DNA of 64,000 bases. Origin: Microbacteriaceae bacterium PS02343. Its GTDB lineage: Bacteria; Actinomycetota; Actinomycetes; Actinomycetales; Microbacteriaceae. Made by a program: the position numbers and the translations under genes. Shown here one piece after another: positions 33,697 through 41,880 of the stretch. The notes under the pieces are model-generated. The model saw nothing but the letters and a program-made list of their open reading frames with translations, searched no databases and was not told the DNA's origin. Within the stretch, counting starts at the first letter, position 1; every line of letters begins with the position of its first letter. The stretch is from the NCBI GenBank assembly GCA_029959365.1, contig JASCOA010000003.1, forward strand, positions 1 through 64,000, in the 5' to 3' direction.

Positions 33697-34902
33697 GTGC
33701 GCAGACCCAGCTCCCCTCACCGCCGTCGCCTCTTCGCGGTCGCGGGCGTCATCGCCGCGGCGGGCCTCGTCGCCGGGATCGGCGCCTTCTGGGCCGGCCA
33801 GCGCGCGGTCGTGACGCCGCCCGAGGCGGCGGCGCCCCTGATCGAGCCGGACGTGCTCGAGGGCGAGACCTTCGACCCGCTGCAGCGGGCACGGCTCGCC
33901 GAGCTGCGCGCCTTCACCGACTGGCTCGACGCCGCCGGAGCGGAGGGCTTCATCGGCGAGATCGGCTGGCCGGCCGCGAGCGACCCCGGCTGGGATCCGC
34001 TCGGCCGCTACTGGTACGACCTGGCCGGGCAGGAGGGGCTCTGGACCGCGGCCTGGGCGGCCGGCAGCCATTGGTCCGACGACTACCGCCTGGTGACCTA
34101 CGGCGGCACCGGTGTGCTGAGCACCGCCGGCGGGCAGGGCCTCGTGCTCGAGCAGCTGGAGGCGGACCGCGCGGAGGACGGTTCGGGCGCGCGGCACGGC
34201 GTGAACCTGGCCGGCCTCGAGTTCGGCACGGGCGAGGGCTTCTCGGCGGCGCGGCCGGGCGAGCTCGGCACGGACTACTTCGCCGAGGCGCCCGAGTCCT
34301 ACGCCTGGCTCGCGGACCGCGGCGTCGACCTCGTGCGGCTGCCCGTGCGGTGGGAGCGGCTGCAGCCCGACCCCGGCGGCGCCCTCGACGATCAGCACGC
34401 GGCGCTCGTGGAGCAGCAGCTCGACGCGGCCGAGGCCGCGGGCGTCGACGTGATCCTCGACCTGCACAACTACGGCGCCCACGGCGCGGACCTGCTCGGC
34501 TCGGCCGCACTGCCGGACGACCGGCTCGCGCGGTTCTGGCTGGCGGTCTCGGAGCGGTGGGGCGCGCATTCGGCTCTGCTCGGCTACGGCCTCATGAACG
34601 AGCCGCACGGTCTCGGCGGCGGCGACGAGCGGGGCGCCGCGGCGGCCTGGGAGGCGACCACGCAGGGGGTCGTCGACGCCCTGCGCGATGCCGGCGACGA
34701 GCATCTGCTGCTCGTCGCCGGCTACGACTGGTCGAGCCTGGCCCGCTGGAGCGACAACCATCCGAGCGGATGGATCGACGACCCCGCGGAGTCCTTCCGC
34801 TACGAGGCGCACCACTACTGGGACGCCTTCGGCGCGGGCGCCTACGACCGCCCCTACGCCGAGGAGCTCTCGACGGTCGAGGCGGGCAGCGGCACCGGCT
34901 GA
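33697..34902 (+). CDS. Membrane-anchored GH5 glycosidase with circularly permuted motif order
   Basis: A 401-residue protein with an N-terminal signal anchor (residues ~12-32) and one GH5 barrel outside the membrane. In normal GH5 enzymes the order is GVN, Arg, NEP acid/base, HxY, then the nucleophile Glu and a Trp-containing WAAG end. Here the end comes first: GFIGEIGWPA with Glu88 and LWTAAWAAGSHW, a linker at ~135-165, then HGVNLAGLEF (Asn170), LVRLPVRWERLQP (Arg214), LMNEPHG (Glu302) and YEAHHYWD (His372/Tyr374), and the protein stops soon after. Both catalytic residues are present. The GTG at 33697 has a weak GAGG. Its 3' end overlaps the convergent polysaccharide operon by 49 bp. Confidence 0.85.
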   Translation: MRRPSSPHRRRLFAVAGVIAAAGLVAGIGAFWAGQRAVVTPPEAAAPLIEPDVLEGETFDPLQRARLAELRAFTDWLDAAGAEGFIGEIGWPAASDPGWDPLGRYWYDLAGQEGLWTAAWAAGSHWSDDYRLVTYGGTGVLSTAGGQGLVLEQLEADRAEDGSGARHGVNLAGLEFGTGEGFSAARPGELGTDYFAEAPESYAWLADRGVDLVRLPVRWERLQPDPGGALDDQHAALVEQQLDAAEAAGVDVILDLHNYGAHGADLLGSAALPDDRLARFWLAVSERWGAHSALLGYGLMNEPHGLGGGDERGAAAAWEATTQGVVDALRDAGDEHLLLVAGYDWSSLARWSDNHPSGWIDDPAESFRYEAHHYWDAFGAGAYDRPYAEELSTVEAGSGTG

Positions 34903-36272
34903 GTCGCGGGCGGCTCGGCGACGACCCGGCTCGGGTCCGCGGCGAGCGCCGCCGCGATCAGCCCGGCCACCTGCAGCCCGTCGCGCACCGCGTAGTTGGT
35001 GCCGCGGTCCTCGGGGAAGACCTGCGAGAAGTTCGCGAGGAAGTAGCCCGGCAGCGGGGTGCGCATGGCGGGGATGCGCGACTCGTAGGTGACGTCGACG
35101 ATGTGCTGCGCGTTGCGGAAGCGGAACACGTGCGACTCCACGACGAGGTCGGGCGAGAACTCGGGGATCAACTCCGCGAGACCTGCGAACCAGCGCTCGC
35201 GCAGCGCATCCTCGTCCATCGTCATCAGCTCGTGGTCGTTGGGCACGTAGTCGCCGATGTAGTAGATGTAGCGGCCGCCCGTGTTCTCGGCGCCGATGAG
35301 CGAGTCGAGGCTGAGGAACACCAGGAACGGGGCGTCGAGGTCGTGGATCTGGTGCCAGTAGGTGTCGGTGATCGGATGGCTCGTCGTGACGATCATGAGC
35401 GCGGCGCCGAGGTAGTCGATGTCGTTCAGCTGCTTCGCGTACTCCGGGGTCATCGCCGGGTGCTGCGAGGCGGCGCGAGCCAGCGCGTTGCTCGGGATTG
35501 CCCCCAGCACGGCGTCGAAGCGGCGCACCTCGCCGTCGACGACGAGCGCGGGCTTGCCCTCCAGCTGGTGGAACGCCGTGATCGGCGTGGAGGTGCGCAG
35601 CACCGCGCCGCGCCGCTCGAGCTCCTCCACCCAGCGGTCGACCATCACGCGGAAGCCGCCCGTGAAGTAGCCCAGCCGCTCGGTCTGCTCGCCATCGATC
35701 TTCGACGTCTGCCGCACGTGGATCCGGGTCCAGAGCCACGCCATCGTGATCCGGTCCCAGTAGATGTCGAACTTGCCGACCAGCAGCGGCTTCCACACGA
35801 TGTCGGTCGCCCGCTTGCCGTTGACGCGGCAGAGCCACTCGTAGGCGGTGACCTTCGTGAGCGGATGCCAGTTGCGCAGCGAGAGCGTGCGCAACCCCGT
35901 CAGACCCGTGCGGATCCGGTCGACGAGGCTCAGCGGCGTGAAGCGCAGCAGCTCGAGCGGCGTCGTGAACCCGTAGCGCCTGCCCTGGTGGAAGGCCTTG
36001 ATCGAGCTCGGGTGGAAGCTCAGCTTGTCGCGGATGCCGAGCTCCTCGGCCATGTCGGTCATCCAGTGGTCGGTCGTGTAGAGGAAGTGGTAGGCCCGCT
36101 CGAGCGGGAAGCCGTCGTCGAGCTCGAAGCCGGCGACGAGCCCGCCGAGGGTCGGCGCCGCCTCGAAGACCTCGATGCGGTGGCCCGCCTTGGCGAGCTC
36201 GTAGGCGGCGGTGAGGCCGGTGAACCCCCCTCCGACGACGGCGATGCGGGCGGGGGCTGCTGCGTGGTTCAT
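34854..36272 (-). CDS. FAD-dependent amine-oxidase-like oxidoreductase
   Basis: A 472-residue flavoprotein of the protoporphyrinogen-oxidase/UDP-galactopyranose-mutase-like class. The FAD motif is IAVVGGGFTGLTAAYELAKAGH at ~9-30, followed by ERAYHFLYTTD; the C-terminal FAD-closing motif is GLQVAGLIAAAL near 440. Last gene of a five-gene operon, overlapping the GtrA gene by 4 bp (ATGA), with GGAAGGAAC as ribosome binding site. In such clusters these enzymes are thought to modify a lipid-linked sugar or the lipid carrier, but the reaction is not established. Confidence 0.85.
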   Translation of the reverse strand: MNHAAAPARIAVVGGGFTGLTAAYELAKAGHRIEVFEAAPTLGGLVAGFELDDGFPLERAYHFLYTTDHWMTDMAEELGIRDKLSFHPSSIKAFHQGRRYGFTTPLELLRFTPLSLVDRIRTGLTGLRTLSLRNWHPLTKVTAYEWLCRVNGKRATDIVWKPLLVGKFDIYWDRITMAWLWTRIHVRQTSKIDGEQTERLGYFTGGFRVMVDRWVEELERRGAVLRTSTPITAFHQLEGKPALVVDGEVRRFDAVLGAIPSNALARAASQHPAMTPEYAKQLNDIDYLGAALMIVTTSHPITDTYWHQIHDLDAPFLVFLSLDSLIGAENTGGRYIYYIGDYVPNDHELMTMDEDALRERWFAGLAELIPEFSPDLVVESHVFRFRNAQHIVDVTYESRIPAMRTPLPGYFLANFSQVFPEDRGTNYAVRDGLQVAGLIAAALAADPSRVVAEPPATQPVPLPASTVESSSA

Positions 36273-36745
36273 GCGACGTTCCTTCCGGTGGATGCGGCGA
36301 AGGTGATGCGGGAGTTGAGCCGGTACTGCAGCAGCAGCACGACGGGCAGCGTGAGGCCCTTGGCCAGCAGCGGCTCGGACTGCAGCACGTCGACGAGCAG
36401 CGCGAGCATGAGGCTGCTCACCACCCAGCCGGCACCGGTGACGAGCGCGAAGCTGATGAAGCGCGCCACGATGCGGTCGCGCACCTTGAAGTTGACGACG
36501 CTGTTGGCGCCGAAGCTCGCCACCATCGCGGCGAAGGTCGAGACCGTGTTCGCGAAGACCGGATGCAGGCCGGTCGCCTCGACCAGCAGGGCGTAGATGC
36601 CGAGGTCGACGACGAGGGCGCCGCCGCCGATCACGGCGTACAGCAGCAGGTTGCGGTAACGGCGGGCGAGGGCGCGCAGGCGCGACCGCCTCGGGGCGGG
36701 TGGGGCGATGGTGACGTTCACGGGGATCCCCTCGTCGTTCTTCAC
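36269..36745 (-). CDS. GtrA-family membrane protein
   Basis: A 158-residue protein with four hydrophobic segments and the GtrA signature LLLYAVIGGGALVVDLGIYALL, FGANSVVNFKVRDR and YRLNSRITF. GtrA proteins are believed to help flip lipid-linked sugars across the membrane or to support the partner glycosyltransferase. The GTG at 36745 overlaps the upstream stop (GTGA); another GTG at 36721 with GAGGGG is also possible. It sits between the GT-C/GH8 gene and the flavoprotein gene. Confidence 0.85.
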   Translation of the reverse strand: MKNDEGIPVNVTIAPPAPRRSRLRALARRYRNLLLYAVIGGGALVVDLGIYALLVEATGLHPVFANTVSTFAAMVASFGANSVVNFKVRDRIVARFISFALVTGAGWVVSSLMLALLVDVLQSEPLLAKGLTLPVVLLLQYRLNSRITFAASTGRNVA

Positions 36746-39327
36746 AGCAGCGCCACGCGGGATCGCGTGGGCAGGTCGTCCTGCAGGCGGTGCCAGGCGT
36801 GCAGCCAGGCGAACTCGACGAGCCCGCCGGTGAAGGCGCCGGTGGTCGGATCGATCCGAGTCGCGATGCGCTCGCGGTAGAGCGCCTCGGCGTCGAGCCC
36901 CAGGTCCCGGGCGGCGGCGAGCATGGTCGAGGCCGTGCCCGAGGCGAGCCCCGGTACGGCGTCGGCGTACGCCAGCACGAGCGGGGCGAGCGCGTCGACG
37001 AGCGCTGCCGCTCGGGCGTCGCCCTGCGCGTCGTCGACCAGCAGCGCCGGCAGCAGGCGCAGGGTGTCCTCGCCCAGCGCATCCGCTCCCGGCCCGATCA
37101 CGGGCTCCGCACTGGCCAGCTCGTCGTCCTCGTCGAGCACGATCCAGTCCGGGACGGTGCCGCGCTCGTCGAGCACACGCGCCAGGAAGGCGTAGCCGTC
37201 GTCGACGAGCCGCAGCCAGTCGTGCTCGGGCAGCGCGACGGCGAGGGAGCGGTAGAGGGCGGGGTCGAAGGTCGACGGGTTCATGAGCTGGTCGTCCACG
37301 GATCCGTCTGCCGAGGAGTCGAGCAGGCGCAGGCCGCCGCGCTCGAAGGTGCACTCGACCCACCAGTCCGCGGCGAGCGCCGCCGCCTCCCCGTGGAGCG
37401 CCGGGTCATCCCAGGTGCCGGCAGCCTCGACGAGCAGCCCGATGAAGCGCTGATCGGCCGCGCAGTCGGTGTCGGCGCTGACGAGGGCGCCGGTGCCGTC
37501 CGGCTGCGTGCGCCACAACCGCGAGGCGAGCACGTCGTCGGCACGGTGGCGGAAGTGGTCGCCCGTCCACTGCCAGACGCCGCGGAAGGTCGCCTCGTCG
37601 CCCTCGGCGAGCGCCTGCTCCATGGCGAGCGCCTGGTCGTCGGAGGTCGTGTCGCCGGCGGGCGTGGTCAGCACCTGCCCGTAATCGACGATCCAGTCGT
37701 CGCGGAAGCGCGTCCACGCGTCCTGCAGCACGATGCCGTTGCGGCTCTTGGTGGCGTAGACCTGCGCCCAGTCGCCGTTGGTCGAGATGCCCGCCGGCAG
37801 GTCGATGTAGCTCGAGCTGCCCTCGGTGAACGAGGCCCGCAGCTCGGAGTGCGCGAGCAGCTCGGCCACCCGCGGCACGGTGCCCTGCGAGATCTGCTCC
37901 ACCACCTCGTGGGTGAGCACGAGGTAGTCGATGTCGCGCCAGTCGTCGTCGTAGCGCTCGCGCGATTCCGGATCGTACTCGGCGCTGAAGAAGTAGATCG
38001 TGTCGTCGTAGTCACCCTCCTGCGCGAGCTCCGGGTAGACGTAGTTGTCGGCCACGATCACCGCGTCGACGGGCACCTCGCGCTCGATCCAGGCCAACGC
38101 CGCCTCCTGATTGCCCGTCTCGTCGACGTCGAGGTGGCGGTGGTCGACGACCACGGCGTAGCCGGCCACGAGCGTGCCGGCCAGGGCGGTGGCCGCCAGT
38201 CCGCGCATCCGGCCCGGCGCGAGGCCGCTCAGCCAGGCGCTGAGCAGGCCCAGCGCCATCGCGAGGAAGGGCAGCGCCGGCACCACGTAGAGGTCGATGA
38301 CGATGCCGCCGCGGGCCAGGAACAGCAGGTAGGAGAGCAGGAAGACGACCACGGCCAGCGTGCCCGGCGAGCGGAAGCGGTGCAGGAGCAGCAGGAGCAG
38401 CAGGCCGACGCCGGCGACCGCTCCGATCGCGAGCGTGTACCAGTCCTTCGCCACCCACGAGCCGACGCTCTGCAGGAAGCTGCTCGCCGGGTCCCACGGC
38501 CAGGCGAAGTCGCCGCGGCCGAGCTGCAGCCCGAAGGTGTCGACGAGGCTCACCCGCAGCGGCTCGCCGTCGGCGCCGATCGGCGCGGGCAGCAGCTCCT
38601 GGTTGAGCAGCGCGTAGAGGAAGAAGAGCAGCACCGTGCCGCCCGCCGCGCCCAGCCAGCACAGCAGTGCGTGCTTGCGCTGCAGCCCGCGGGCGCCGAA
38701 CCAGAGCAGCACCAGGAAGCCGAGCCCGAAGAACACGGCGTTGAGCTTGGTGAGCACCGCGATGCCGAAGACGAGGCCGCTCAGCGCGGTGGAGCCCAGG
38801 GTGAGCGGGCGCCGCAGCAGCAGCACGATCGCCAGCAGCACCCAGAGCACCATGAGGTTGTCGAGCAGCACCCGGCGGTGGAAGTAGACGCCGATCGGCG
38901 AGAGCGAGAAGGCGAGCACGGCGATGACGCCGGCCGTCAGCCGCCCGCCCGCGAGCCGGGTGGCGACCACGTAGAGCAGCCCGGTGCTCGCCAGGTGCAC
39001 GAGCAGCATGAGCACGCGCCCCGCCTCGAGCATGCCGCCGAAGACGGCCCCGCCGCCCGTGAGCGCCAGCCACCCGCCGACGGCGATCCAGCCGAGCGGG
39101 GCGTGGTCGTAGCGGTAGGTGTGCACGTCGAGCCGGCCCTCGGTCACGAACGCCCAGCCCCGCGAGAGGTAGGTGGCCTCGTCGTTCTCGAAGTACGGGT
39201 AGCCGAACATGTTCCAGCCGTGCACGACGCCGCTCAGCACGAGCAGGGCGAGCAGGATCAGCAGCTCGGCGTGCGAGCGGATGAGCGGATGCGCGCGCGG
39301 GCGCACCGCGGCGGCGTGGGCGGTCAC
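36742..39327 (-). CDS. GT-C membrane glycosyltransferase (GT39-like) fused to a GH8-like domain
   Basis: An 861-residue two-part protein. Residues ~20-460 form a GT-C multi-span membrane glycosyltransferase: NMFGYPYFENDEATYLSRGW carries the catalytic-type Asp-Glu in the first outer loop, and about ten membrane helices follow. Residues ~500-850 resemble GH8 (BcsZ-like): DAWTRFRDDWIVDYGQVL, TTSDDQALAMEQAL, TFRGVWQWT, SADTDCAADQRFIGLL, DDQLMNPSTFDPALYRSL and VPDWIV. In GH8 the motif SEG bears the acid glutamate; here it is SDD (~residues 562-564), so hydrolysis may be altered or lost. The GTG at 39327 overlaps the upstream stop (GTGA). The GH8 part should face the cell exterior. Confidence 0.8.
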   Translation of the reverse strand: MTAHAAAVRPRAHPLIRSHAELLILLALLVLSGVVHGWNMFGYPYFENDEATYLSRGWAFVTEGRLDVHTYRYDHAPLGWIAVGGWLALTGGGAVFGGMLEAGRVLMLLVHLASTGLLYVVATRLAGGRLTAGVIAVLAFSLSPIGVYFHRRVLLDNLMVLWVLLAIVLLLRRPLTLGSTALSGLVFGIAVLTKLNAVFFGLGFLVLLWFGARGLQRKHALLCWLGAAGGTVLLFFLYALLNQELLPAPIGADGEPLRVSLVDTFGLQLGRGDFAWPWDPASSFLQSVGSWVAKDWYTLAIGAVAGVGLLLLLLLHRFRSPGTLAVVVFLLSYLLFLARGGIVIDLYVVPALPFLAMALGLLSAWLSGLAPGRMRGLAATALAGTLVAGYAVVVDHRHLDVDETGNQEAALAWIEREVPVDAVIVADNYVYPELAQEGDYDDTIYFFSAEYDPESRERYDDDWRDIDYLVLTHEVVEQISQGTVPRVAELLAHSELRASFTEGSSSYIDLPAGISTNGDWAQVYATKSRNGIVLQDAWTRFRDDWIVDYGQVLTTPAGDTTSDDQALAMEQALAEGDEATFRGVWQWTGDHFRHRADDVLASRLWRTQPDGTGALVSADTDCAADQRFIGLLVEAAGTWDDPALHGEAAALAADWWVECTFERGGLRLLDSSADGSVDDQLMNPSTFDPALYRSLAVALPEHDWLRLVDDGYAFLARVLDERGTVPDWIVLDEDDELASAEPVIGPGADALGEDTLRLLPALLVDDAQGDARAAALVDALAPLVLAYADAVPGLASGTASTMLAAARDLGLDAEALYRERIATRIDPTTGAFTGGLVEFAWLHAWHRLQDDLPTRSRVALL

Positions 39328-40661
39328 GACGCCTCGGCGATCATGACCGGCACCGGCGACGTGACCGGTGCGAGCACCGGCGCCGGCACCGGCTGGGCGC
39401 CCTGAGCACCCAGCCGGTGCTGGCCGGTGTGCACGGTCTTCTCCCAGCCTCGACTCCCCGCGAGCTCGCGGGTCATCGCGCGGACCGCGCTCACCATCAA
39501 CAGCCCCTGGTACGGGATGAAGCTCAGCACCAGGAGCAGGTATCGGAAGGGGGAGATCCGGATCCCCTGGTCCCTTCCGAACTCGTAGAGGCCGACGATG
39601 CTCGTGAGGAGCATGACGACGGCCAGCAGCAGCGGGGCGAACGAGAGCAGGCTCACGAGCACCGGCAGCTTCGTCGTGGCCCCGATGATGATGAAGAGCG
39701 GCGCCGAGGCGATGACGACCGCCATGAAGCTGGGCGCGATGAGCACGGAGCCGATCAGCACGACCTTGCGGGCGCTCGGCAGTTTCAGCCACTCCCCCTT
39801 GCGCAGGATCTGCAGGAAGCCCTGATTCCATCGGGTGCGCTGCTTCACGAAGGCGCCCGTGGAGTGCGGCACCTCCTCGCGCGTGACGTGCTGCGCGTCG
39901 TACATGACCTCGAAGCGGCGGCCGGCGAGGCTCAGCCGGATGCCCAGGTCGGCGTCCTCGGTGAGGCCGTGCTCGTCCCATCCGCCCACCTCGCGCAGGT
40001 CTTCCGCGCGGAAGAACACCGTGTTGCCGCCGAGCGGCACGGCGCCCTCCTTCGCGAAGTAGTGCATGCGCGATTTGAACCAGAAGAAGTACTCGAGCAC
40101 GTTGTGCCCGCTGAACCAGTGGCTGTCGTGGTCCATGAGCTGCACGCCGCACTGCAGCACGTCGACGGTGCGCTGCTGGTAGATCGTGTCGACGATCGAG
40201 AAGATCTCGGGGCTCACGTCGTCCTCCGAGTCGAAGATCGTCACGAGCTCGAAGCGGGCCTCGGCCAGGCCGAGGTTCATGGCACGGGACTTGCCCGGCT
40301 CGCCCTGCAGCACGACCACGCGCACCTGCTCGAGCCCGTGCCGGCCCTTCGCGTCCTCGGCCGCCGCGATGGTCGCGTAGTCGTCTGCGGTGCAGATGAC
40401 GAGCAGCTCCACGAGCTCGCGGGGGTACTGCGCCTCGCCGAGCCGTCGCAGCGTCTCGCCGATCACCTCGGCCTCGTGGCGGGCCGGCAGCAGCACCGTG
40501 AAGCCGTGCTTCGGCGGCAGGTACCGCTTCGGCCGGCCTGCCGCGCGAATCCGCTCCGGGGTGTCCCAGATGTAGAGCGTCTGCATGAGGCTCGTCACGC
40601 TCTGCGCCAGCAGGATGATCGCGGTGACGAGCACGAACGCCGTGAGGGCGCTATGCAGCAC
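39324..40661 (-). CDS. Processive family 2 glycosyltransferase, cellulose-synthase-like
   Basis: A 445-residue integral membrane GT2 protein: one N-terminal helix, the GT-A domain with FTVLLPARHEAEVIGETLRR, FDSEDDVSPEIF (DxD equivalent), GLTEDADLGIRL (TED) and KQRTRWNQGFLQI (QxxRW), then about four membrane helices. These motifs are those of BcsA/hyaluronan-synthase-type polymerases that make and extrude a beta-linked polysaccharide. The PilZ domain of classical BcsA is missing, so it is not directly c-di-GMP regulated. It overlaps its upstream neighbour by 11 bp and the GT-C gene by 4 bp. Confidence 0.88.
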   Translation of the reverse strand: MLHSALTAFVLVTAIILLAQSVTSLMQTLYIWDTPERIRAAGRPKRYLPPKHGFTVLLPARHEAEVIGETLRRLGEAQYPRELVELLVICTADDYATIAAAEDAKGRHGLEQVRVVVLQGEPGKSRAMNLGLAEARFELVTIFDSEDDVSPEIFSIVDTIYQQRTVDVLQCGVQLMDHDSHWFSGHNVLEYFFWFKSRMHYFAKEGAVPLGGNTVFFRAEDLREVGGWDEHGLTEDADLGIRLSLAGRRFEVMYDAQHVTREEVPHSTGAFVKQRTRWNQGFLQILRKGEWLKLPSARKVVLIGSVLIAPSFMAVVIASAPLFIIIGATTKLPVLVSLLSFAPLLLAVVMLLTSIVGLYEFGRDQGIRISPFRYLLLVLSFIPYQGLLMVSAVRAMTRELAGSRGWEKTVHTGQHRLGAQGAQPVPAPVLAPVTSPVPVMIAEAS

Positions 40662-41880
40662 GGCGGTAGGCGGGGGTCGCGGCGAGCAGGGCCGGGGCGG
40701 CCGGGGCCGCCGTGCGCGCCGGGTTCCAGATGCGCGTGCTCGAGAACCGGTAGACGATGAGCACCCCGGCGGCGATCGCCAGCACCTGCAGGACGACGGC
40801 GAGGACGCCGAGCGGGGCCGTGGCGACGATCGCGCCGGCCACCGCCGAGCAGATCAGCAGGCCGAGCAGCTCGAAGCGCAGGAGGTCGACCAGCGGATGC
40901 GCACGGCCACCGAGCCGCACCGCGGTGCGGTAGCGGCGGAAGCTGAACCGCGGGTGCCAGAGCGCGCCCCACAGGATCGCCGCCTGCATCGCGCCCGCGG
41001 CGAGCAGCCAGGGGGTGGCGGGCGCGTCCGCGGGCGCCAGCAGCCCGCCCAGCCCCGCCAGGAGCAGCGCCAGCAGGGCGCCGCTGAGCGCCACGAGCAG
41101 GAAGCGGCCGAACTGCTTGGCGGGCGAGTCGTCATTGAGCTGCGCCGCGATGCGCACGAACTCGAGCACGTCGCGAGGGCCGGCCTTCGAGGCACCGGCG
41201 GCGCGCGAGTGGAAGCTGATCGGCACCTCCTTGACGGTCCAGTCGGAGGAGCTGAAGGCGTTGGCGAGGAAGAGCTGGAAGCCGTAGCCGCGTGCGCGCA
41301 CCCGGCCGAAGTCGATGCCCGCGAGCACCTCGCTGCGCATGGCGCGGAAGTTGGTGGTGAGCTCGCGCAGCCGCGGATCGACGCCGCCGAGACCGCGGGC
41401 CACGGCACCGGCCACCCGGGTGCGCACGATCTGGTCGAGCGGCCAGTCGCCGGGGATCAGTCCCCCGGGCGTCGTGCGCGAGCCGACCGCCACATCCGCT
41501 CCGGCGTTGATCGCCCGCAGCAGCTCCACGATGTCGCGGGGGTCGTGCGAGAAGTCGGCGTCCATGGTCATGACGACCTCGTAGCCCAGCTCCAGCGCCT
41601 CGGCGAAGGCCAGTTCGAGGGCTCGACCGAGGCCCTGCTTGACGCCCTGCGAGTGCGCGAGCCGCCCCTCGTGGCGCCCGGTGGCGAGGGCCTGAACGAT
41701 GTCGCCGGTGCCGTCGGGCGAGCTGTCGTCGCGCACGAGCACGTGCAGCTGCCAGCCGGTGCGGGCGCCCAGCGGCAGGGTGAGCAGGGCGTCGAGGAGG
41801 GCCTCGATGTTGCCCGCCTCGTTGTAGGTCGGCACGATCATGAGCGCTGTGCGGGCAGGGGCGATCGGAGGAAGAGCCAT
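40651..41880 (-). CDS. DPM1-like glycosyltransferase with C-terminal GtrA domain
   Basis: A 409-residue two-domain protein. Residues ~10-245 are a polyprenyl-phosphate sugar synthase of the DPM1 type: MIVPTYNEAGNIEALLDALL, VRDDSSPDGTGDIV, MTMDADFSHDP, VGSRTTPGG and YGFQLFLANAF. Residues ~260-390 form a GtrA-like four-helix membrane domain. It probably loads a sugar on polyprenyl phosphate and helps bring it to the outer face for the GT-C enzyme. The ATG at 41880 follows AGGAG by eight bases. First gene of the operon, with a ~250-nt leader. Confidence 0.87.
   Translation of the reverse strand: MALPPIAPARTALMIVPTYNEAGNIEALLDALLTLPLGARTGWQLHVLVRDDSSPDGTGDIVQALATGRHEGRLAHSQGVKQGLGRALELAFAEALELGYEVVMTMDADFSHDPRDIVELLRAINAGADVAVGSRTTPGGLIPGDWPLDQIVRTRVAGAVARGLGGVDPRLRELTTNFRAMRSEVLAGIDFGRVRARGYGFQLFLANAFSSSDWTVKEVPISFHSRAAGASKAGPRDVLEFVRIAAQLNDDSPAKQFGRFLLVALSGALLALLLAGLGGLLAPADAPATPWLLAAGAMQAAILWGALWHPRFSFRRYRTAVRLGGRAHPLVDLLRFELLGLLICSAVAGAIVATAPLGVLAVVLQVLAIAAGVLIVYRFSSTRIWNPARTAAPAAPALLAATPAYRRAA

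Follow-up and report, generated by a model that had tools for sequence, protein, structure and literature searches.

Evidence for a natural circular permutation of the GH5 barrel in a Microbacteriaceae glycosidase

The window analysed here is a stretch of 64,000 nucleotides from Microbacteriaceae bacterium PS02343 (contig JASCOA010000003.1, positions 1 to 64,000). It contains a gene for a GH5 enzyme, present as a single copy in this genome, which converges with a run of five genes on the opposite strand. The features of the gene and of its neighbours are collected in Table 1.

Table 1. The GH5 gene, its parts and the neighbouring genes, in window positions
Feature	Position	Strand	Basis
CDS, GH5 enzyme with probable circular permutation; 401 aa, GTG start	33697..34902	+	ORF, Pfam, phmmer
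Putative N-terminal hydrophobic signal anchor, about residues 11-34	33727..33798	+	reading of the sequence
Old C-terminal barrel quarter: alpha6, beta7, alpha7, beta8, alpha8 (residues 61-161)	33877..34179	+	phmmer, profiles, model
E88, nucleophile position, aligned with RBcel1 Glu245	33958..33960	+	alignment and column checks
Residues 162-166, linking alpha8 to beta1, where the old termini are joined	34180..34194	+	model, by-eye comparison
Old N-terminal barrel three quarters: beta1 to beta6 (residues 167-386)	34195..34854	+	Pfam, phmmer, profiles, model
E302, acid/base position, aligned with RBcel1 Glu135	34600..34602	+	alignment and column checks
Helix region at the new C-terminus (residues 387-401); cut between it and alpha6	34855..34899	+	model, by-eye comparison
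FAD/amine-oxidase-type protein (PF01593; NCBIfam PRK07233), transcribed towards the GH5 gene	34854..36269	-	domain matches, synteny
GtrA/DPMS transmembrane protein (PF04138)	36269..36742	-	domain match, synteny
PMT-type membrane glycosyltransferase with fused C-terminal GH8 (BcsZ-like) domain	36742..39330	-	domain matches, synteny
GT2 glycosyltransferase with weak similarity to PgaC/IcaA and CelA models, far under the cut-off in each case	39324..40661	-	domain matches, synteny
Second GT2 glycosyltransferase (PF00535), DPM1-like by eye	40651..41880	-	domain match, synteny

The Pfam entry PF00150 matches the protein with 111.4 bits (gathering cut-off 23.5), and it matches all 11 members of our alignment A1 at E≤0.001. 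A check of sequence and alignment columns places the motifs where the initial annotation had put them: GFIGEIGWPA at residues 84-93 (with E88), WAAG at 120-123, HGVNLAGLEF at 167-176, R214, NEP at 301-303 (with E302) and HHY at 372-374. By columns and model, E302 and E88 correspond to the GH5 acid/base Glu after beta4 and the nucleophile Glu at beta7. The RBcel1 residues with which they align, Glu135 and Glu245, are described as acid/base and nucleophile, respectively (PMC8900817).

The chain does not follow the usual course from beta1 to beta8 but runs beta7, beta8, beta1-beta6. GH5 endoglucanases rank first when the protein is compared with PDB sequences using phmmer, and the six best rows, as well as three endoglycoceramidase rows, align in two stretches; the next best, XacCel5A, aligns in one. 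In 4lx4, query residues 160-384 correspond to chain 7-218 and 68-132 to chain 232-294; in 4ee9 and 7p6g, 168-385 correspond to 6-212 and 56-132 to 215-287. Taken alone, the swapped stretch scores 11-14 bits in these three alignments (i-E 0.13-0.99). Because it is weak in single-sequence searches, we built two dedicated profiles, one from 24 canonical beta7-beta8 fragments and the other from 24 canonical beta1-beta6 fragments, with no fragment taken from a record under an actinobacterial title. With the beta7-beta8 profile, residues 1-160 score 43.7 bits (E 1e-12 at Z=1000) and the full-length protein scores 41.7 bits, in region 68-132; when residues 56-160 were shuffled 2000 times, the highest score was 9.4 bits. 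The beta1-beta6 profile gives 219.5 bits in region 167-391. The N-terminal segment can thus be taken as the beta7-beta8 part of a GH5 enzyme, as had been proposed. The expectation that a GH5 profile would yield two matches in swapped order held for the purpose-built fragment profiles. The Pfam model returns one stretch at E≤0.001 and two at E≤10; its best stretch aligns residues 191-383 with profile positions 18-204 of 272.

That single Pfam stretch, together with the low phmmer score of the swapped piece, is what would be seen if a canonical GH5 gene had been cut off at its C-terminus and had an unrelated N-terminal domain merely resembling the beta7-beta8 motif. The profile scores set against those of the shuffles speak strongly against this reading, as do the recurrence of the same order in 26 distinct genes and the prediction of a complete barrel at high confidence, both described below, and we regard it as highly improbable. 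Truncation or sequencing error was also considered and is rejected, since none of the others among the 694 window reading frames of at least 40 aa scores above 2.5 bits as a second beta7-beta8 piece and the order recurs in other genomes.

Structure prediction was carried out with AlphaFold2 on an input alignment (A2) that combined the window protein with 10 permuted homologues and 48 canonical fragments, for which 24 of 26 listed canonical genes were used; its catalytic columns were checked. For residues 51-401, the model has a pLDDT of 94.8 and a pTM of 0.93, and forms one complete (beta/alpha)8 barrel whose eight strands follow the order beta7, beta8, beta1-beta6 (the strand names are our own assignment, with window residue numbers). 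The old C-terminal part comprises alpha6 (61-80), beta7 (84-90), alpha7 (99-112), beta8 (116-122) and alpha8 (146-161); it is followed by beta1 (167-171), beta2 (212-217), beta3 (251-256), beta4 (294-298), beta5 (337-341), beta6 (367-374) and a C-terminal helix (387-400). The initial annotation had the old termini joined by a linker at about residues 135-165. A joint does exist, and its extent is smaller: most of that segment is helix alpha8 in the model, so that the joint consists of the few residues before beta1. As canonical beta7-beta8 fragments had been placed on the N-terminal part by sequence, we treat the model as support rather than independent proof. A single-sequence AlphaFold model was poor (pLDDT 41.3) and was set aside.

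Comparison of the model with solved structures points the same way. All 12 best VIA-align rows are GH5 endoglucanases, and this order-bound comparison gives them Z-scores of 22.1-23.0 over 216-224 residues. For 10 of the 12, the match runs from model residue 104-114 to 344-348, against the chain start to residue 222-228 (of 313-325), and leaves the remainder of both proteins unmatched, stopping at the old C-terminal quarter. In the two exceptions, 5hnn and 5hos, it extends to chain residue 262-266 with an rmsd of 3.7-3.9; weaker rows lower down start at model residue 62-64. Fifty rows among the Foldseek matches listed have query-normalised TM-scores of 0.51-0.57, and in 16 the rmsd is at most 2.0 A. 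This pattern is what should be expected of a permuted barrel. A permuted GH5 structure does not occur among the VIA-align matches listed, which is no argument for its absence.

Taken together, the swapped phmmer and profile matches, the full predicted barrel and the order kept in 26 distinct genes support the circular permutation that had been suggested for this gene. With a probability of about 0.85 for this architecture, we consider the protein to be a GH5 endoglucanase that has been circularly permuted in nature; its closest subfamily is probably GH5_5. All parts of the barrel are found once, in swapped order and in related genes. The canonical strand order is usual in GH5 and is not defining for it, because families are defined by sequence relation. 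The nearness to GH5_5 is read from the best PDB matches, which include RBcel1 and Ps_Cel5A, both described as GH5_5 enzymes (PMC8900817).

To see how widely the order occurs, we collected homologues from genome assemblies. A first scan of a genome collection gave at least 76 loci from the best 80 of 196 relatives, 10 of the 76 being permuted (L001-L009 and L039). Further searches matched 4 of 394 genomes at class level and 7 of 199 at family level (both E≤1e-10), 9 of 396 at order level (1e-20), 12 of 396 at phylum level (1e-25), 6 of 39 in the order of genome G1129 (1e-25), 1 of 3 in the order of genome G074 (1e-20) and 1 of 244 in the class of a Saccharimonadia genome (1e-20); these counts overlap and take in canonical matches. 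Absences in the large searches are soft, because few candidates per genome were scored. A search of 296 further genomes for canonical relatives (E≤1e-15) matched 20, some already known, and added none to the set.

Order calls over 119 loci gave 42 permuted rows, 95 canonical rows and 13 without a call; L113 was scored canonical on a 4.7-bit match only, and its order is doubtful. Removal of copies and weak rows (beta1-6 score at least 60, beta7-8 score at least 8) left 119 rows, 26 permuted and 93 canonical. With identical-sequence loci pooled, the 26 distinct permuted genes come from 21 genomes, 20 of them assigned to Actinomycetota by title or kinship and one a Saccharimonadia metagenome-assembled genome (MAG; L009), so that conservation of the permuted order in homologues, proposed as a check, is confirmed. 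E302, E88 and H372 are kept in all 26 permuted rows, R214, N301 and Y374 in 25, H257 in 23 and W120 in 21, and the canonical rows keep E302 in 90 of 93 and E88 in 92 of 93. L104 accounts for the sole R214 and N301 deviations and for one of the three at H257, and may be misaligned. At the cut-offs of the 119-row set, neither part is found twice in any permuted ORF, which, with the full predicted barrel, agrees with the earlier statement that nothing is duplicated or missing.

Some individual genomes deserve mention. In genome G533, the main copy and that of Marisediminicola (L006) have equal scores, and there is a second permuted GH5 (L088/L134), highly divergent and carrying a long extension at its C-terminus. 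In genome G074 (L120), two permuted GH5 genes are separated by about 13 kb, with a GT2 gene near each. The ORF at L113/L132 is of the permuted type by its ends, has no detectable beta7-beta8 part and reads AEP for NEP; it is possibly a decayed copy.

The cut and the joint were compared by eye only. Permuted chains mostly end after a segment of the type 'Y.EE.A...GY' that follows beta6, and they begin, past the export signal, at '.D.L....EL..F..WL', the helix before beta7. Canonical L095 is continuous across this cut point, reading 'GWDSLAAKVDAELGGFLAWC'. At the joint, L008 reads 'QASVFEQHPSSGSYLRGVN', which is similar to canonical ends, for instance 'QASVIEAHPSG' at the C-terminus of L087 and the N-terminal 'GASYLRGVN'; the start-like half of the joint is of the canonical 'SYLRGVN' type, and the other half is like some canonical C-termini. 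Cut and joint look alike among the permuted rows except, in part, for L088 with its long C-terminal extension and L009, which ends slightly earlier.

In such a permutation, the old ends, helix alpha8 and strand beta1, would have been joined through a few residues, and new ends would have been opened in the connection from beta6 to alpha6/beta7, downstream of the signal anchor. The permuted chain should still fold as the usual barrel, with E302 and E88 in place as acid/base and nucleophile. The most parsimonious path to this state would be a head-to-tail gene duplication, after which the first copy would have lost beta1-beta6 and kept its export signal, and the second would have lost beta7-beta8. 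Duplicated intermediates were not seen among the 119 rows. Eight multi-domain rows were examined as candidates and rejected, their extra matches being weak (8.4-14.5 bits) and lying within beta1-beta6 of canonical proteins.

We also asked whether the order arose once. In a tree of the 119 rows, a group made up of the 26 permuted rows and eight canonical actinobacterial ones separates from 85 canonical rows with an SH-aLRT support of 99; L079, a canonical row from the window's class, groups with the 85. A more careful tree of 53 rows contains 25 of the 26 permuted rows, the eight canonical actinobacterial rows and a hand-picked 20 of the 85. L079 was left out, as was L088, because of its long branch. 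This tree recovers the grouping of permuted and canonical actinobacterial rows with support 100/98. Within it, canonical L085 and L067 fall among the permuted rows (the L085 fork has support 92/87, and the grouping of L067 and permuted L112 has 95/93), so that order requires three changes on the tree, and a single change suffices in 0% of 200 bootstrap trees. Constraining every permuted row to a single clade carries a cost of 13.4 log units (AU p 0.052).

These results lend some weight to the possibility of several independent origins of the permuted order, or of a single origin with a later return to canonical order in the actinobacterial lineages of L085 and L067; we hold this to be somewhat less probable than its opposite. 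L085 and L067 are long branches, a single permuted clade survives the AU tests at 0.05 (p 0.057 with L067 added to the constraint and 0.218 with L085 added), and the similarity of cut and joint across the permuted rows, judged by eye, favours a single origin. The tree therefore leans to reversals or several origins, and the common cut to one origin. A scenario that we put forward as speculative is that the barrel was permuted in an actinobacterial ancestor, that L085 and L067 have since returned to canonical order, and that the permuted form moved with a synthesis cluster into a Saccharimonadia lineage. If true, strand order would have switched in both directions inside one GH5 family.

The neighbouring genes are shared by several relatives. 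The permuted gene has genes for the FAD protein, GtrA, PMT/GH8 and GT2 in its neighbourhood in five Demequina loci (L001-L005), in Marisediminicola (L006) and in Saccharimonadia (L009), so that in the window's subgroup the linkage spans two families and another phylum; in genome G525 (L133) the DPM1 gene is present as well. A single tblastn match covers both parts of PMT-GH8 in the Demequina, Marisediminicola and Saccharimonadia loci. In the Saccharimonadia MAG (L009/L169, 6627-15485), the cluster, including a gene that is DPM1-like by eye, and the permuted GH5 all run in the same direction. Misbinning of this contig was considered and is not supported, its GC content being 50.9% and that of four other contigs of the MAG 49.6-53.6%, a weak test; among the 244 genomes searched in its class, no other matched at E≤1e-20.

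Elsewhere the linkage is partial. In L039/L138 and L120, the permuted gene has GT2 and PMT genes close by. Canonical L136 (7865-8785) shows the order GT2-PMT-DPM1-GH5, as does permuted L138 (8137-9159, from a Frankiales MAG), where DPM1 matches only at E 1e-6. L007 has part of the FAD gene only, on a 6-kb contig, L124 a weak GT2 match only and L125 a short FAD match. By tblastn, cluster genes were found neither on the 8.7 kb of L008 nor, outside the window's subgroup, at L121-L123, L126-L132, L134 and L139, four of the latter being on pieces under 12 kb.

From this context and by analogy, we think it fairly probable that the permuted GH5 is anchored in the membrane and acts outside the cytoplasm, as a beta-1,4-glucan hydrolase or transglycosylase, on the polymer of the GT2/PMT-GH8/GtrA/FAD cluster, activity and substrate both being predictions. 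It would trim or remodel that polymer, much as Ps_Cel5A is proposed to take the part of BcsZ in cellulose synthesis (PMC8900817). The analogy is incomplete, because Pseudomonas stutzeri is described as having no GH8 endoglucanase (PMC8900817), whereas the window cluster includes a GH8 domain too. That the closest solved relatives are endoglucanases, and that several permuted genes are not close to a recognisable synthesis cluster, would also suit a secreted cellulase serving nutrition rather than polymer synthesis. This seems unlikely to us, given that the window's subgroup keeps the gene beside the GT2/PMT-GH8/GtrA/FAD genes across two families and another phylum, that the N-terminus is hydrophobic and that no carbohydrate-binding module is found among the Pfam matches of the protein.

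Permuted and canonical relatives occur in one phylum and, in one instance, canonical L136 and permuted L138, they occupy equivalent positions in gene clusters of similar order. With such coexisting pairs, and with canonical-like ends still legible by eye in the joint, it would be possible to test how a permutation comes about, what it costs and whether it can be reversed. Domain scans can show such genes as partial GH5 matches, as the best PF00150 stretch illustrates.

Among characterised enzymes, the window protein is most usefully compared with the GH5_5 enzymes RBcel1 (4ee9) and Ps_Cel5A (4lx4), with which it shares 34-36% identity over 218-222 aligned columns (beta1-beta6), the same catalytic residues and the same barrel, predicted in our case. 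Unlike these two, which run canonically from beta1 to beta8, it begins with beta7-beta8. With Ps_Cel5A it would also share the proposed link with bacterial cellulose synthesis (PMC8900817). Its role may be of the same kind as that of BcsZ in bcs cellulose operons; BcsZ belongs to GH8, a glycosidase family and fold other than GH5, and the BcsZ-like, PMT-fused GH8 domain lies three genes from the window GH5.

A literature search at title level, mainly of open-access literature, found no natural GH5 permutant. To our knowledge, natural circular permutations within a single TIM-barrel domain are rare, and GH70/GH13 is the textbook case; these two families belong to clan GH-H and GH5 to GH-A, and the GH70 cut differs from that seen here. 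In glycosidases more broadly, natural permutation has been described for the GH3 enzymes GlyA1 and BrGH3A and for MalS of GH13_19, as a permuted arrangement of domains (PMC5104943, PMC11233000, PMC10223318), whereas in the window GH5 the cut lies within a single barrel. The GH70 glucansucrases, alpha-glucan enzymes unlike the window GH5, are described as natural circular permutants of the (beta/alpha)8 barrel of GH13 (PMC4919382, PMC9732880), and GH70 is described as including non-permuted members as well (PMC9732880). What appears new here is a natural permutation inside the GH5 barrel, for which GH70, as described in these sources, is the known parallel.
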